Shown: piece after piece, positions 4,756-12,329 of the stretch
Layout of the letters: each line of letters opens with the position of its first letter
How positions within the stretch are numbered: position 1 is the first letter of the stretch
The notes under the pieces: generated by a model
What the model saw: the letters and a program-made list of their open reading frames with translations, nothing else
The model's database searches: none
Told to the model about the DNA's origin: nothing
Translations under genes and position numbers: made by a program
From: Longimicrobiales bacterium
GTDB taxonomy: Bacteria; Gemmatimonadota; Gemmatimonadetes; Longimicrobiales; Gaopeijiaceae
DNA length: 64,000 bases
Direction: 5' to 3'
NCBI GenBank assembly: GCA_951828585.1
Contig: OX639991.1
Coordinates: 1,272,576-1,336,575 of the forward strand

Positions 4756-5027
4756 GTCCTCTGCTCCTTCTGGACGCCGCCTTGGCTCCTGGTCCGAAAG
4801 GGTGAAGCAGGTAACGGTCTGTCACGGGCCACAGGGACCGTACCATCCGAAAAATATATCGTGACTCTTTATATCACAAATCTTACTGTCCCATGCTCAA
4901 GCCCGACAAGCTATCCACATATAGGGCATCGGCTGGGTGGGCTACATTGCGACATTGGTCCAATCCAAATCCACGGCTTGGGGTAACCCTTGGTGAAGTG
5001 GAGCAAGCTGGCAGTCGGGAGGTAGTC

Positions 5028-6275
5028 ATGAGATACCGCATCCGCATCGCGATGCTTGCCGTTCTCGCCTGTTCATCCGACCGTGACACCGATGGCCCGG
5101 AAACCCGGAACCGCTTCGAGGATGGCGGTGAACTGTCACAAGCAGAATCCGCCTGGAGCATCGACCCGGAACCAACGCTGGTCCTCGGCCGGCTCGAAGG
5201 CCCGGACGCGCACCTCTTCTCCCAGATCCGCGGCGCCGTCCGCCTCTCCACCGGAACCGTCGTCGTGCTGGACGGTGCTTCTAGACAGTTGCGCGCCTTC
5301 TCCCCCGACGGCACCCATCTCTGGACGGCAGGCGGCCCCGGCGAAGGCCCGGGAGAGATGCGAAACCCGACACACATCGAGACCCTCCCCGGCGACACCC
5401 TCCAACTGCAGGACGGCCTCTCCAGGATTCGCTACGCCGCCGTCGGCACCCTGATCGCCCACGAACGTCTTGCCACGGCGGACCTGATGAGATTCGGCCG
5501 GTATTACGCCTCCGAGTGTGCCGTCCCCAGCTTTGTTGGGAACCGCGTACTCGCATGTTCAGGTGACGGTTTCGATGTCCGCGAGGCGCCCCGTGAGGAG
5601 GGGCCTTGGCGAGGCGAGACCGAGCTGGCCGTGCTACCATGGAATCTGGACTCGATTGCCCATCTGGGAGTGTTTCTGAAGGAGGAGGGCTGGGCGCTCC
5701 CGTTCGAGGGCTTGCCGCCCCTCTCCGACCAACTCGTGATACTTGGTGGCGGTGGGATGGGATACGCCTCCCCGCCCATGGCCCGAAAGGGAATCTTCGC
5801 GGTGGGTGGATGGCCGCGGAAGCTGGCGGTGGCGGACGGCTGGGGGGACGAGGTGCAGACCTTCGACCTTGCGGCGGACCCGGCGCTTCCCGGTATGACC
5901 ATCCCCATCAGGAATGTCCGTCGACCTCCCACCGCTGATGAACTCGCGGCCGCCTGGGAGGCAGTTTCGGCCAGGTGGAGAGTGGGTTCGCCGGAGTACG
6001 TCCGTGAACATCTCCCCGCACCCGACTCAATACCCAACGTCGATCATCTCTTGGTCGATGACCTGGGCATGGTGTGGGTCGGATCGTACCAGGCCGACGC
6101 GTCGGCACCGCGATCCTATCACGTATACCACACCGAAGGGCCGTTCCTGGCCCACGTGACGATGCCGGCGGGCGTGGAGGTCCTCGAAATCGGGGCGGAC
6201 CACGTCCTCGGAATCACGCACGACGAGCTGGATGTCGAGCGAGTCGTCCTGCTCAATCTGGAAAGGAGCCCGTAG
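5028..6275 (+). CDS. 6-bladed beta-propeller lipoprotein
   Basis: 415 residues from the ATG at 5028, preceded by GGGAGGT at four bases. Earlier in-frame starts lack a ribosome site and would bury the signal peptide. The signal MRYRIRIAMLAVLAC puts the lipidated Cys at 15. Blade motifs recur: VVVLDGASRQLRAFSPDG, then GGPGEGPGEM, then LPGDTLQL, and near the end LLVDDLGMVWVGSY. This is a secreted or periplasmic propeller family expanded in Gemmatimonadota-type genomes, and ligands are unknown. It lies divergent from a decayed paralogue at 3963-4755 and upstream of another at 6804. Confidence 0.82.
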   Translation: MRYRIRIAMLAVLACSSDRDTDGPETRNRFEDGGELSQAESAWSIDPEPTLVLGRLEGPDAHLFSQIRGAVRLSTGTVVVLDGASRQLRAFSPDGTHLWTAGGPGEGPGEMRNPTHIETLPGDTLQLQDGLSRIRYAAVGTLIAHERLATADLMRFGRYYASECAVPSFVGNRVLACSGDGFDVREAPREEGPWRGETELAVLPWNLDSIAHLGVFLKEEGWALPFEGLPPLSDQLVILGGGGMGYASPPMARKGIFAVGGWPRKLAVADGWGDEVQTFDLAADPALPGMTIPIRNVRRPPTADELAAAWEAVSARWRVGSPEYVREHLPAPDSIPNVDHLLVDDLGMVWVGSYQADASAPRSYHVYHTEGPFLAHVTMPAGVEVLEIGADHVLGITHDELDVERVVLLNLERSP

Positions 6276-6339
6276 AAAGGGCGGACCCGGCCCCCCGGTT
6301 GTATCTTCGGAATCCCCCCTTCACCCTCCGGAGACCCCC

Positions 6340-6807
6340 ATGCCCCGCCAGCACTGGCTCATGAAGAGCGAGCCCTACGTCTACTCCATCGACGACCTCG
6401 AGCAGGACGGCGCCACCCACTGGGACGGCGTCCGCAACTACGCCGCCCGCAACCTCATGCGCGACAAAATGAGGATCGGCGACCGCGTCCTCTTCTACCA
6501 CTCGAACGCCAAGCCCCCCGGCGTCGCCGGAATCGCCGAGGTCTGCCGCGAGTCCTACCCCGACTTCACCCAGTTCGACCCGGCCAACAAGTACTTCGAC
6601 CCCAAGGCCACGCCCGACAACCCCCGCTGGTTCATGGTGGACGTCCGCTTCGTGGAGAAGTTCGCGCGCGAGGTCGGCCTGCCCGAGATCCGCGCCACGC
6701 CGGAGCTGGCCGACATGGTGCTGGTGAACCGCAGCCGCCTTTCGGTGCAGCCGGTGAAGGAAGCCGAATTCGAGCACATCGTCGCGATGGTGGGGAGTGG
6801 GCCGTGA
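6340..6807 (+). CDS. EVE domain-containing protein
   Basis: 155 residues forming a single EVE (PUA-like) domain, opening with HWLMKSEPYVYSIDDL and containing DGVRNYAARN and GDRVLFYHSN, the typical pocket of this family. EVE domains are related to YTH and ASCH folds and read modified bases in DNA or RNA. Short stand-alone versions of this type are common and usually unassigned. The ATG at 6340 follows GGAG at six bases. The stop overlaps the GTG of the next propeller gene (GTGA), so the two are co-translated. Confidence 0.9.
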   Translation: MPRQHWLMKSEPYVYSIDDLEQDGATHWDGVRNYAARNLMRDKMRIGDRVLFYHSNAKPPGVAGIAEVCRESYPDFTQFDPANKYFDPKATPDNPRWFMVDVRFVEKFAREVGLPEIRATPELADMVLVNRSRLSVQPVKEAEFEHIVAMVGSGP

Positions 6808-8027
6808 AACTACGGCGTCCTGCCCGGGCAGCCCATGGCGGCTTTGTCCACGGATTGCTCGCCATGATCGGCGGTGGGACCTTCTGCCTTGCTTGCACGG
6901 ATGTGCCGGACGATCTCCAGCAATCGGAGGTTGCGGAGTGGGAGCTCGTCGAGGATCTGCGGCTCGACGCGAACGCCGAGGACTTTTCTGTTGTCCGGCG
7001 GGTCTTCGTCGGACCGCAGGGCGAGATCGTCGTGCCGGAGCCTCAGGACAGGCGGTTGCGTCTGTATGACTCGACTGGAACGCTGGTGGCCGTGATCGGG
7101 AGGATGGGGGAGGGGCCCGGAGAGTTCCAACATGTGGGTCCTGTCTTTTGGGCTGCGGACACGTTGGTCGTATTTGATATGCAACTGGCCCGCGCGACGT
7201 ACCTGCTGCCGGACGGGACTCCGGCCCGTACGGAGGCCGGCCGGTTCTTTCGCCCGGACTTCGGTGCCTCGGGTGCGGATAGCTCCTTCATGGCCTTCAC
7301 ACCCGAAGCCGCCGATGAAGAGGGGGCGATGCTCGGGTCGGCCTATCTGAGTGTTTCAACCGACGGCCAGAGCGGGTCGGCGCGACTGGTGATTCTGCGG
7401 GTGTCGCGTGATGGCGAGCCGCGCGTTGTTGCCTCGCCCCCGCGATGGGACGACGAACGTTGGAACGTCACCATATCCGGCCTCACCAACCCGGTTCCCT
7501 TCGCATTTCAGCCATGGCCCAAAATCGCACCGGATGGAAGCCGATTCCTCTTCGCGACGGCTGATCAGTCCACCCTCGACGCCACCTACAACCTGACGCT
7601 TGTCCGCCCGACCCATGACACTGTATTCACGCGCTCCTATCCGTACGCCGCCGAGCCAATCCCCGATTCGGCAATGGACCGCGGCATCGCCGGGATGGTG
7701 CCGGAAAACAACCTTGCCCGCCGCTTCAGGGCCCTGGCCCGCGAACGCGCGCCCGTAGCGTATCCCCCAACAGCCGTTAAGCTCGGTCTCGACGGGACGA
7801 TCTGGGTAACCCTGCGCCCCACGGACCACGGAACGCCCGTGCACGTGCTGAGCGAGACAGGAGCCCCGATCGCCTCTCTGCTTCTGCCGAAGCGAACGCG
7901 CATTCAACAGGCCAGCATGACGCATGTGTGGGTCACCGAATACGACCCCCTCGATCTCGCAAGCGTGGTTCGCTACCGGATAGTTCAGCACCCCGGCACA
8001 GGCCCTGAAGGAGGGATGGAAGGATGA
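6804..8027 (+). CDS. 6-bladed beta-propeller lipoprotein
   Basis: 407 residues from a GTG that overlaps the stop of the EVE gene. The signal peptide runs to a lipobox TFCLAC (Cys31). Propeller signatures include GRMGEGPGEFQHVGP, DTLVVFDMQLARATYLLPDG and, near the end, LGLDGTIWVTLRPTDHG. It is paralogous to the gene at 5028 and to the C-terminal half of the M56 protein at 10005. It is coupled to the next gene, mmsA, by ATGA at 8024. Substrate or binding partner cannot be read from the sequence. Confidence 0.82.
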   Translation: MKLRRPARAAHGGFVHGLLAMIGGGTFCLACTDVPDDLQQSEVAEWELVEDLRLDANAEDFSVVRRVFVGPQGEIVVPEPQDRRLRLYDSTGTLVAVIGRMGEGPGEFQHVGPVFWAADTLVVFDMQLARATYLLPDGTPARTEAGRFFRPDFGASGADSSFMAFTPEAADEEGAMLGSAYLSVSTDGQSGSARLVILRVSRDGEPRVVASPPRWDDERWNVTISGLTNPVPFAFQPWPKIAPDGSRFLFATADQSTLDATYNLTLVRPTHDTVFTRSYPYAAEPIPDSAMDRGIAGMVPENNLARRFRALARERAPVAYPPTAVKLGLDGTIWVTLRPTDHGTPVHVLSETGAPIASLLLPKRTRIQQASMTHVWVTEYDPLDLASVVRYRIVQHPGTGPEGGMEG

Positions 8028-9554: not shown

Positions 9555-9584
9555 TTGACAGAATACTGCGCGCTGTAGTATCAT
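9555..9584 (+). promoter_or_regulatory. Promoter of the blaI-M56 operon with dyad operator between -35 and -10
   Basis: TTGACA at 9555-9560 and TATCAT at 9579-9584 form -35 and -10 boxes with an 18-base spacer. Between them lies an imperfect dyad (9564-9580) whose outer half-sites are TACT and AGTA, the same half-sites as the BlaI/MecI box. Binding there would block RNA polymerase. It lies 53 bases upstream of the BlaI-type gene, as expected for autorepression. Confidence 0.7.
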
Positions 9585-9636
9585 TAATGCGGAATGCAGT
9601 AACGGCCGATATCCAGGACTGAGGGAGAACACCGCG

Positions 9637-10008
9637 ATGGGCTTGCCGAGAATACCGAACTCCGAGTTGAGCGTGATGGAACTGCTCTGGCGGAAAGGCC
9701 GGCTGTCCGCACGCCAGATCCTCGAACACCTGTACCCGGACTTGGCCCGGTCCCAGCACGGGGCGGTTCAAAGCTTGCTGCAACGCCTTATGCGGAAGGG
9801 CTTCGTGGTCCGCGACCGCGACGTGGGCGTCTACCTCTTCTCCGCCGTCCCGAGCCGAGAGGAGTACGCGAGTGATCGGCTTGATGCGCTCGCCGGCCGG
9901 CTAACCGGTGGATCGGTGGTTCCGATCATCACGCAACTGCTTGAGGCGGACAGGCTGCCGAAGGAGGAGATCGAGAGGCTGCGAAGGATTCTGGAGGAGT
10001 GGAAATGA
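9637..10008 (+). CDS. BlaI/MecI/CopY family transcriptional repressor
   Basis: 123-residue winged-helix repressor. The N-terminal half has LSVMELLWRKGRLSARQILEHL and VQSLLQRLMRKGFVVRDRD, typical of the BlaI/MecI DNA-binding domain. The C-terminal half is a helical dimerisation region. The start follows GAGGGAGAA. In known pairs an M56 membrane protease cleaves or inactivates the repressor when an inducer is sensed, and here the M56 gene overlaps the stop (ATGA at 10005). It probably binds the dyad at 9564-9580 and controls its own operon. Confidence 0.92.
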   Translation: MGLPRIPNSELSVMELLWRKGRLSARQILEHLYPDLARSQHGAVQSLLQRLMRKGFVVRDRDVGVYLFSAVPSREEYASDRLDALAGRLTGGSVVPIITQLLEADRLPKEEIERLRRILEEWK

Positions 10009-12329
10009 CCGATATCCTACTGCAAATCGGCGCTACGAAGCTGGTCCTCGCGGTTGTGCTGGCCGGCGCGGTCTGGCTGGTGACGCGGCGCGTCGCGCGA
10101 CCCGCCATCGCGCACTCCCTTTGGCTCGTGGTCTTCGGGGCGATGCTGGTTCCTGCGGTCGTGCCCCTTCGCGTCTTGCCGGAGGAGGCGGTAGTGGAGG
10201 TTGTGGCGCAGCCCGGGGTCGCGGCGCAGCCCGGGGTCCTGCCGATTCGAGTTCAGTCTGAGGAGGTGATGGTGGAGGTGGCCCAACCCGAGGTCAGCGC
10301 GCCGGTGGTAGTCCGCGACGCCGGCATGAGCGGGGATGGCATGGCCCCCGGAGGTTGGCTCCCGCTGAGCGGAAAGCCGCTGGCGGTGCTCCTGTGGCTT
10401 CTGGGCTCCGCCGGATTTTTCGGGTGGACGGCGGTGCGGACGGTGGGTTTTCAGCGAATGCTTACAAAGATCGCCCGGCCGGCCCCACAGTTGCAACGGC
10501 TTGCGACCGAGATCGGCAAGAGGTTGGGCCTGCGGCGAGTGCCGCCAGTCTACACCACGGGTGCGCGGTTGCGCCCTCTGGTGTGGTGGGCGGGTGGGCG
10601 CGTCCGGATCCTGATACCCTCGGTGCTAGTCGCCGATCTCGACAAGACGGAGCTTCGCGCGGTGCTCGCGCATGAACTGGCCCACGTGCGGCGCCGGGAC
10701 TACCTGGTGCGAGTGGTGGAATTGCTGGGGTGCGCGGCCTACTGGTGGAATCCGGTCGTCTGGTGGGCCAAGCGGCAAATGAGGTCGGCGGAGGAGTCGA
10801 GTTGCGATGTGCTTGCCGTCTCCGCGTCGAGGTTGTCGCAAGATCGGTACGCCAAGTCATTGTTGCGCGTGGTCGAGGTCATGTCGGCTGTGCCGATCCC
10901 GCGGGCACCGGCCCTGGCGAGCGCGGCTGACAGTTGCCGGGATTCGAAGCGGCTGGAGAAGAGGCTGAGGGCTGTCCTGACAACTGCTCCTACAGCTTCG
11001 CCCACGACCGGTGGGCTCCGCGTGTCAGGTGCGGCCGCGCTGGTGTTCGGGTTGTCCCTCGGGCTTGTGTATTGCGCCCCTGGCGTGCAACAAGCCATCG
11101 ACCAACCGCAGTTGCCGACTCCCACACTATCAGAGGACAGTGCTGGTATTCGCATCGTCGAGTACGCCGGCGCGCCGGACGGCCAGGCATCCTTCGGCTT
11201 CTCCGCCGTACCGCTTTACCGCCACGACAACAACCCGGGTGATAACCGGTTGCGCTATGTTTCCGCGGGTGCCCTGCTCGCGGACGGCAGTGCCGTCGTC
11301 GCCGATGCGTTCACCAACGAACTGATCGTGTTGAGCCAGGACAGCACACCGCCTAAGGTGCTGGCCAGGCGGAGAGCAGGACCGGGCGACTACTACTCCG
11401 CCGACGGCGAATATGCGCTGGGTCGGGACAGTGTCATGGTTTCCGGTCGCGACCGGGGTGCCGTAACCTTCACCGTCAGCGGCGTATACGCGCTGGGTCG
11501 GGACAGTGTCATGGTTGCCGATCGGGACCCGGGCTCCGTAACCCTCTTCGTCGGTGGTTTGGTCGCCCGCAAGCTGGATGCACCGATTCGATTTCGCCGT
11601 GATATGCGGGGAATCGGTTCCACCGGCCACCTGCTGCTGGCCACCGGGACGACTACGTACGGATTTGAGGAGGAGTGGCTCCCTGGGCACATGGCCCGTT
11701 TCGACATGGACACCGGCGCCCTGGACACGATTGCGTCCTACGATCACCAGTCTCGCCCTCCGTCGGGAATGTTCCGGAATCCGATCGGAGCGCGTGGCTC
11801 GGTGAGAGTCTCGAACGGGCAATTCGTCTACACGCGGTCCGACAGGCCGGAGATCATCTGGCGGCAGCCGGACGGCACAGTAGCGCAGATCGTACGATGG
11901 CAGGCCGAACCGGCTCCGCTGACAGAGGAGCTGCTGGAAGGTGTGGAGGCAGCATTCCGAAAACACAATCGGAGGGTCAACCCCGACGCGCCGGATGCCG
12001 ACATCGAGCGGATGACGGCGTCCGACATGGCCCCCTATCGCGCCGTCCTCGGCTACCCGATGCCCCTCTTCGGGCCCCCCATCGGCGACGGGGAGGGGCG
12101 GATATGGCTACCTGCCTACCTGCCCACTGCCTACCTGACCGGAGAATGGCACGTAACCGCGCTGGACCACACCGTCATTTCCGCCGACGGCCAGTGGCTG
12201 GGCACGGTAGAAACCCCGCCGGGGCTTCGCATCCTCGATGTGGCCGGCGGACTCGTCCTGGGCGTGCTGGGAGACGGAATGGGTGTGAAGAGTGTTGTGG
12301 TGTACGAGCTGGTGGAGCGCGGTTCGTGA
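10005..12329 (+). CDS. M56 family metallopeptidase fused to a 6-bladed beta-propeller sensor
   Basis: 774 residues from the ATG at 10005, which overlaps the blaI stop and follows GGAGGAG. The N-terminal membrane region is BlaR1-like. A periplasmic linker with repeated Q-P/E-E units is followed by a second hydrophobic helix near 127-150. The zinc site HELAH is at 223-227, with the distal motif AEESSCD. After a further membrane helix (about 340-358) the penicillin-binding sensor of BlaR1 is absent. Instead about 400 residues resemble the neighbouring propeller lipoproteins (SEDSAGIRIVEYAG; GDGEGRIWLPAYL). It is probably a signal-activated protease that inactivates the adjacent repressor. Confidence 0.85.
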   Translation: MTDILLQIGATKLVLAVVLAGAVWLVTRRVARPAIAHSLWLVVFGAMLVPAVVPLRVLPEEAVVEVVAQPGVAAQPGVLPIRVQSEEVMVEVAQPEVSAPVVVRDAGMSGDGMAPGGWLPLSGKPLAVLLWLLGSAGFFGWTAVRTVGFQRMLTKIARPAPQLQRLATEIGKRLGLRRVPPVYTTGARLRPLVWWAGGRVRILIPSVLVADLDKTELRAVLAHELAHVRRRDYLVRVVELLGCAAYWWNPVVWWAKRQMRSAEESSCDVLAVSASRLSQDRYAKSLLRVVEVMSAVPIPRAPALASAADSCRDSKRLEKRLRAVLTTAPTASPTTGGLRVSGAAALVFGLSLGLVYCAPGVQQAIDQPQLPTPTLSEDSAGIRIVEYAGAPDGQASFGFSAVPLYRHDNNPGDNRLRYVSAGALLADGSAVVADAFTNELIVLSQDSTPPKVLARRRAGPGDYYSADGEYALGRDSVMVSGRDRGAVTFTVSGVYALGRDSVMVADRDPGSVTLFVGGLVARKLDAPIRFRRDMRGIGSTGHLLLATGTTTYGFEEEWLPGHMARFDMDTGALDTIASYDHQSRPPSGMFRNPIGARGSVRVSNGQFVYTRSDRPEIIWRQPDGTVAQIVRWQAEPAPLTEELLEGVEAAFRKHNRRVNPDAPDADIERMTASDMAPYRAVLGYPMPLFGPPIGDGEGRIWLPAYLPTAYLTGEWHVTALDHTVISADGQWLGTVETPPGLRILDVAGGLVLGVLGDGMGVKSVVVYELVERGS
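10203..10238 (+). repeat. 18-bp tandem duplication in the M56 periplasmic linker
   Basis: Two adjacent 18-base units (10203-10220 and 10221-10238) differ at only two positions and encode V-A-Q-P-G-V then A-A-Q-P-G-V. A related E-E-x-x-V-E-V-x-A-Q-P segment follows about 20 residues later. The linker therefore seems to grow by slippage. Confidence 0.7.
11412..11561 (+). repeat. 75-bp tandem duplication inside the propeller domain of the M56 protein
   Basis: Bases 11412-11486 and 11487-11561 are near-copies in frame, each encoding Y-A-L-G-R-D-S-V-M-V followed by a diverged R-D-x-G-x-V-T segment. The first 30 bases are identical except for one. A 25-codon duplication of part of a blade suggests recent change in the sensor domain. 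Confidence 0.8.

Follow-up and report, generated by a model that had tools for sequence, protein, structure and literature searches.

The closest described relatives of the locus examined here are the BlaI/BlaR1 and MecI/MecR1 systems of staphylococci and Bacillus licheniformis. In these systems a repressor and an M56 protease with HEXXH and EXXXD motifs and four membrane helices are encoded in one operon, the C-terminal domain of the protease lies outside, and several operators are found at the promoter. BlaI/BlaR1 is known mainly as a detector of penicillin. We analysed a 64-kb stretch of DNA (the window; positions 1272576-1336575 of the 4.47-Mb single-contig genome of what is probably a marine Gemmatimonadota bacterium) that carries an operon with these same features. 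Unlike BlaI/BlaR1, the putative sensor is a beta-propeller rather than a penicillin-binding domain, and the operon contains no beta-lactamase or penicillin-binding protein gene. A sequence-only reading had described a BlaI repressor paired with an M56 protease bearing a propeller. That observation is real and somewhat larger than first stated, as the sensor is modular and appears to be naturally exchanged among relatives.

The repressor is matched by Pfam Penicillinase_R at E 7.6e-21 over residues 8-121 of 123 (75.1 bits against a cut-off of 22.6), so that the winged-helix and dimerisation domain is present at full length, and its nearest solved structures are MecI and BlaI. The gene that follows begins with GTG, and its first 10 bp lie within the end of blaI. 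Its product is matched by Pfam Peptidase_M56 at E 1.4e-24 over residues 10-297 (87.3 bits against a cut-off of 31), and residues 192-290 can be aligned to solved BlaR1 structures. HELAH at 225-229 and the residues E266 and D270 fit the HEXXH and EXXXD zinc motifs of BlaR1 (PMC9834060). Four hydrophobic segments are present (10-28, 37-55, 128-146 and 342-360); loops 1 and 3 are rich in Lys and Arg and loop 2 is acidic, so that both termini are predicted to lie outside, as in BlaR1. In domain, zinc motifs and topology the protein thus belongs to the BlaR1-type M56 proteases, and both identities proposed in the sequence-only reading are borne out. We also considered whether GLVYC at the end of the fourth transmembrane segment (TM4) is a lipobox; this was ruled out, as Phe takes the place of Cys in the orthologues of loci L066 and L069.

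The C-terminal half of the fusion protein is a six-bladed NHL-like propeller. From residue 371 the AlphaFold model has a predicted local distance difference test score (pLDDT) mostly above 90 and is nearly all beta, with about six four-stranded blades and a helical hairpin at residues 643-682. Foldseek and VIA-align group the modelled half with NHL six-bladed propellers, and VIA-align matches it to Brat-NHL (1q7f) with Z 18.5 and a root-mean-square deviation of 3.6 over 263 residues and to the PknD sensor (1rwi) with Z 14.9. Furthermore, a profile built from the window protein and 48 relatives matches NHL chains at E 7e-28. Pfam reported no propeller family over its cut-off in the fusion protein. 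Failure of this half to model as a propeller had been named beforehand as grounds for rejecting the idea, and the model and the NHL matches both go the other way. The main badly modelled patch (residues 467-487, pLDDT below 50) falls inside a 75-bp tandem duplication that homologues lack.

A propeller in this position has a precedent. PknD of Mycobacterium tuberculosis is a membrane signalling protein that likewise senses through an outer six-bladed NHL-type propeller (PMC3322341), although its output is a Ser/Thr kinase whereas repressor proteolysis is proposed here. Similarly, the six-bladed DUF5128/DUF4221-type propellers of Bacteroides (4raa, Z 15.5; 3s9j, Z 16.9) are alike in fold and size; they are free-standing, while the window propeller is fused to a membrane protease. 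We found no literature on M56 proteins with beta-propeller sensors in the open library, which is not proof of absence.

Comparison of orthologous operons in the genus indicates that the propeller is a variable part on a conserved chassis. The M56 halves of propeller-bearing forms are about 67-84% identical, and the C-termini are of four propeller types (PROP, TYPEB, TYPEC and TYPED) or a tail of about 130 residues; the window fusion is of the PROP type. TYPEC and TYPED were called propeller-like because their sequences resemble one another and that of the window lipoprotein at 4893-6272; TYPEB was called a propeller from its length, a shared entry motif and repeats judged by eye. The gene 3' of the fusion encodes a stand-alone PROP protein in L104, L105, L106 and L110 and a stand-alone TYPEB protein in L067, L114 and L115; the sequence-only reading had proposed such co-occurrence as a check. 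In the short-tailed forms the next gene is a lipoprotein related to that at 4893-6272; in L076 a lipoprotein gene of this type overlaps the M56 gene, and the short tails of L074, L075 and L076 contain Cys. The window propeller is most closely related (about 51-62% identity) to free-standing lipoproteins encoded next to orthologous operons. This refines the earlier claim of a relation to the neighbouring lipoproteins; the two lipoproteins of the window itself are only remotely related (E about 4e-5 for one, in a small comparison).

Trees of the two halves disagree. TYPEB is found at separate positions of the M56 tree, with at least three label changes, and fused and free forms are interleaved in the PROP tree, again with at least three changes. 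The broken operon copy in the same genome groups with G029 in the protease tree (91/82) and with G026b in the propeller tree (100/98). The G026a sensor has the lipoprotein encoded downstream of it as nearest relative (100/99), and that of G029 groups weakly with its own neighbour (81/82). The disagreement suggests that the sensor has been exchanged with neighbouring lipoprotein genes, and these sequences are most simply read as the outcome of exchange or repeated fusion, with a mode and direction that we infer. The fused TYPEB forms make up one clade, which means that exchange with the adjacent gene does not apply to all operons. We therefore put forward, as a hypothesis about as likely to hold as to fail, that a BlaI/M56 chassis conserved across the genus trades its outer propeller with adjacent lipoprotein genes as a swappable cassette, such that receptor and co-regulated lipoprotein would shift specificity together. 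The broken copy (L064, own genome 566000-575500; 4273-7307, minus strand) has the same tandem operators, an interrupted M56 frame and two propellers joined in one frame, and looks like a decaying operon copy.

Table 1. Features of the window operon and sensor types of orthologous operons in the genus.
Feature	Position or locus	Strand	Basis
Sigma-70-like promoter TTGACA-18-TATCAT	9555-9584	+	11/12 matches, 0.1 expected in region
Putative operator O1, TACTGCGCGCTGTAGTA	9564-9580	+	Dyad between -35 and -10; kept in 12 orthologous operons
Putative operator O2, TAATGCGGAATGCAGTA	9585-9601	+	Just 3' of -10, 21 bp from O1; kept in 12 orthologous operons
BlaI/MecI-family winged-helix repressor, 123 aa	9637-10008	+	Pfam, NCBIfam, structure alignment
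M56 (BlaR1-type) membrane metalloprotease with C-terminal six-bladed propeller, 776 aa	9999-12329	+	Profile, motifs, model
Protease zinc site, HELAH (residues 225-229) to ESSCD (266-270)	10671-10808	+	Motif rule (PMC9834060)
TM4 (residues 342-360), into periplasmic domain	11022-11078	+	Hydropathy
Six-bladed NHL-like propeller, putative sensor (residues 371-776)	11109-12326	+	Profile, AlphaFold, structure alignment
In-frame 75-bp tandem duplication between blades 1 and 2, two copies 83% identical	11393-11542	+	
PROP sensors	L065, L066, L070, L071		
TYPEB sensors	L067-L069		
TYPEC sensor	L068		
TYPED sensor	L072		
Short tails	L074-L076		

The promoter region is consistent with control by BlaI. 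The O1 dyad had been placed exactly between the -35 (9555-9560) and -10 (9579-9584) elements; this position stands, except that the dyad reaches 2 bp into the -10 element and is one half of a tandem pair whose spacing corresponds to two helical turns. Absence of the dyad from orthologous operons would have counted against the proposal; tandem dyads precede blaI in all 12 orthologous operons read in the genus, always exactly 21 bp apart, with a majority-base fraction of 0.81 for O1 and 0.84 for O2 against 0.46-0.47 for the flanks. The window operator consensus is approximately TACnGCAnnnTGCnGTA, as compared with the sequence TTACATATGTAA on which OP1 of B. licheniformis is based.

The genome was scanned for further sites by pattern matching. 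TACT-N9-AGTA matches only O1 in the window (0.05 expected), but as a marker of a regulon it was rejected, since it occurs at 10 sites genome-wide against 52 per strand for the reversed pattern and so shows no enrichment; what is informative is the tandem arrangement and its fuller consensus. A degenerate pattern built from O1/O2-type sites, TAMKRCRNNNTGYMKTA, matches the genome without mismatch at only two tandem pairs, that in the window and one located at 573 kb, in front of the paralogous blaI of the broken copy. The regulon therefore probably consists of the operons themselves. Two other candidates were discarded. Many genomes of the genus contain TAATACAGAATGCCGTA, but its site in this genome lies inside an S9-like peptidase gene and is probably conserved as coding sequence. 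Sites resembling TAATGTAAACTGTAGTA, found at three genomic locations, belong to a small repeat with further palindromic sequence, unlinked to the blaI operon; this repeat (near 3982261, 4089236 and 4152567; L136, L137 and L138) has about 42-50 conserved bp with TACTACACTTTACATTA-like and ATTACATAATG-like sequence. In L115 an AhpC/TSA-family redoxin gene (6245-7702, minus strand) has a BlaI-type operator upstream (7682-7698), lying between -35 and -10 in the minus-strand order TTGACG, operator, TATTGT. This suggests that other genomes may have additional BlaI targets, and L114 and L117 have redoxins related to that of L115 close to propeller genes.

The genes and their motifs, the model of the fold, the conservation of the tandem operators and the differences among C-termini described above fit an autoregulated receptor operon of the BlaI/BlaR1 type, and we consider it likely that ligand at a periplasmic propeller leads to BlaI cleavage and derepression. 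We infer the following course for BlaI binding, ligand sensing and cleavage. BlaI dimers on O1 and O2 would block the single promoter, while the zinc protease would face the cytoplasm and the six-bladed propeller the periplasm. Binding of a ligand (a peptide, a glycan, an envelope fragment or a partner lipoprotein are candidates) would move TM4 and the protease, upon which BlaI would be cut and the operon released. In relatives the operon is often followed by a propeller lipoprotein of the same type, which suggests that one ligand is probably shared by sensor and product. There is a parallel in BlaR1, whose penicillin sensor resembles beta-lactamases as the propeller sensor resembles the lipoprotein product.

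Several observations weigh against this interpretation. At the position of the window BlaI that aligns with the cleavage site of Staphylococcus aureus BlaI, the Asn-Phe bond is not conserved, and the regulon appears to comprise the operon alone. The protease half is modelled with low confidence at residues 236-307 and near TM4, so that its identification rests on the sequence profile. Additionally, the match between sensor and neighbour fails for TYPED, with L117 carrying a TYPED sensor and then a PROP neighbour, and in the window no lipoprotein lies 3' of the fusion. The trees contain few sequences, most of which come from fragmented metagenome bins, and the fused G022a row has a long branch.

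The propeller might instead be a structural or docking domain that tethers partner lipoproteins. BlaI would then be freed by a general signal, from membrane stress or peptidoglycan, with either the protease or, directly, BlaI as its target. For B. licheniformis it has been proposed that a peptidoglycan dipeptide in the cytoplasm inactivates BlaI (PMC3305447), some orthologues in the genus make do with the short tail, and Gemmatimonadota M56 proteins combine the same protease with unrelated C-terminal folds (HEAT repeats, coiled coils, TonB_C or Amidase_3). The tendency of propeller and neighbouring lipoprotein to be of matching type is better suited to ligand or partner specificity, and we regard a docking role as unlikely.

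A second alternative is that the fusion arose by accidental read-through of an M56 gene into an adjacent lipoprotein gene and has no signalling role. Sensor and downstream lipoprotein are paralogous, the second copy in the genome is broken, and the window copy carries the 75-bp duplication, all of which speak for such an accident. However, seven genomes of the genus carry fusions in open reading frames, at least four propeller types being represented, and an unrelated M56 protein has acquired a DUF5128 propeller. Recurrent retention of fusions argues for use, and we consider the read-through explanation very unlikely. The DUF5128 case (L178, G033:C1:3406000-3410500; 215-2956) is a separate fusion whose six-bladed propeller is over the Pfam cut-off, and M56-propeller fusions therefore probably arose more than once.

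With regard to the signal, Pfam at E up to 1 found no penicillin-binding, transpeptidase or beta-lactamase domain in the fusion protein, and a Pfam scan of the M56 proteins examined reported no penicillin-binding domain. The NCBIfam BlaR1 model scores 56.4 bits against a cut-off of 400, and its alignment goes no further than profile position 276 of 585; the protein thus has neither the equivalog score nor the class D beta-lactamase-like C-terminal sensor of BlaR1 proper. That the signal is probably not a beta-lactam is a fair conclusion from these results. Furthermore, relatives swap the outer propeller for others resembling neighbouring surface-protein genes, and the switch probably senses something other than penicillin. 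The system is BlaI/BlaR1-like in anatomy up to the sensor and is not a BlaR1 beta-lactam receptor. That it should truly be a receptor for beta-lactams, with a penicillin-binding site that has escaped recognition, as the homology of its BlaI and M56 parts to the beta-lactam system might suggest, is extremely unlikely given the Pfam result and a C-terminal half that is propeller throughout. The propeller occupies the position of the penicillin sensor, as first claimed; a historical replacement of one by the other is unsupported, and M56 proteins across the phylum have many other C-termini.

The propeller-sensor case makes testable what widespread BlaR1-like receptors sense. The genus has a naturally occurring set of domain swaps in which to ask how the protease is driven by an outer domain, and it provides a handle on the large families of Gemmatimonadota propeller lipoproteins. 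The window genome has 13 M56 and 10 BlaI genes. Relatives retrieved with the propeller come mainly from Gemmatimonadota metagenome bins, Candidatus Palauibacter among them, and 2 of 30 such loci are labelled Gammaproteobacteria. Finally, in L181 (G228:C10; 575-4132, minus strand) an M56 protease is joined to an N-acetylmuramoyl-L-alanine amidase domain (Amidase_3, E 7e-16) and may be a BlaR1-like receptor linked to peptidoglycan.
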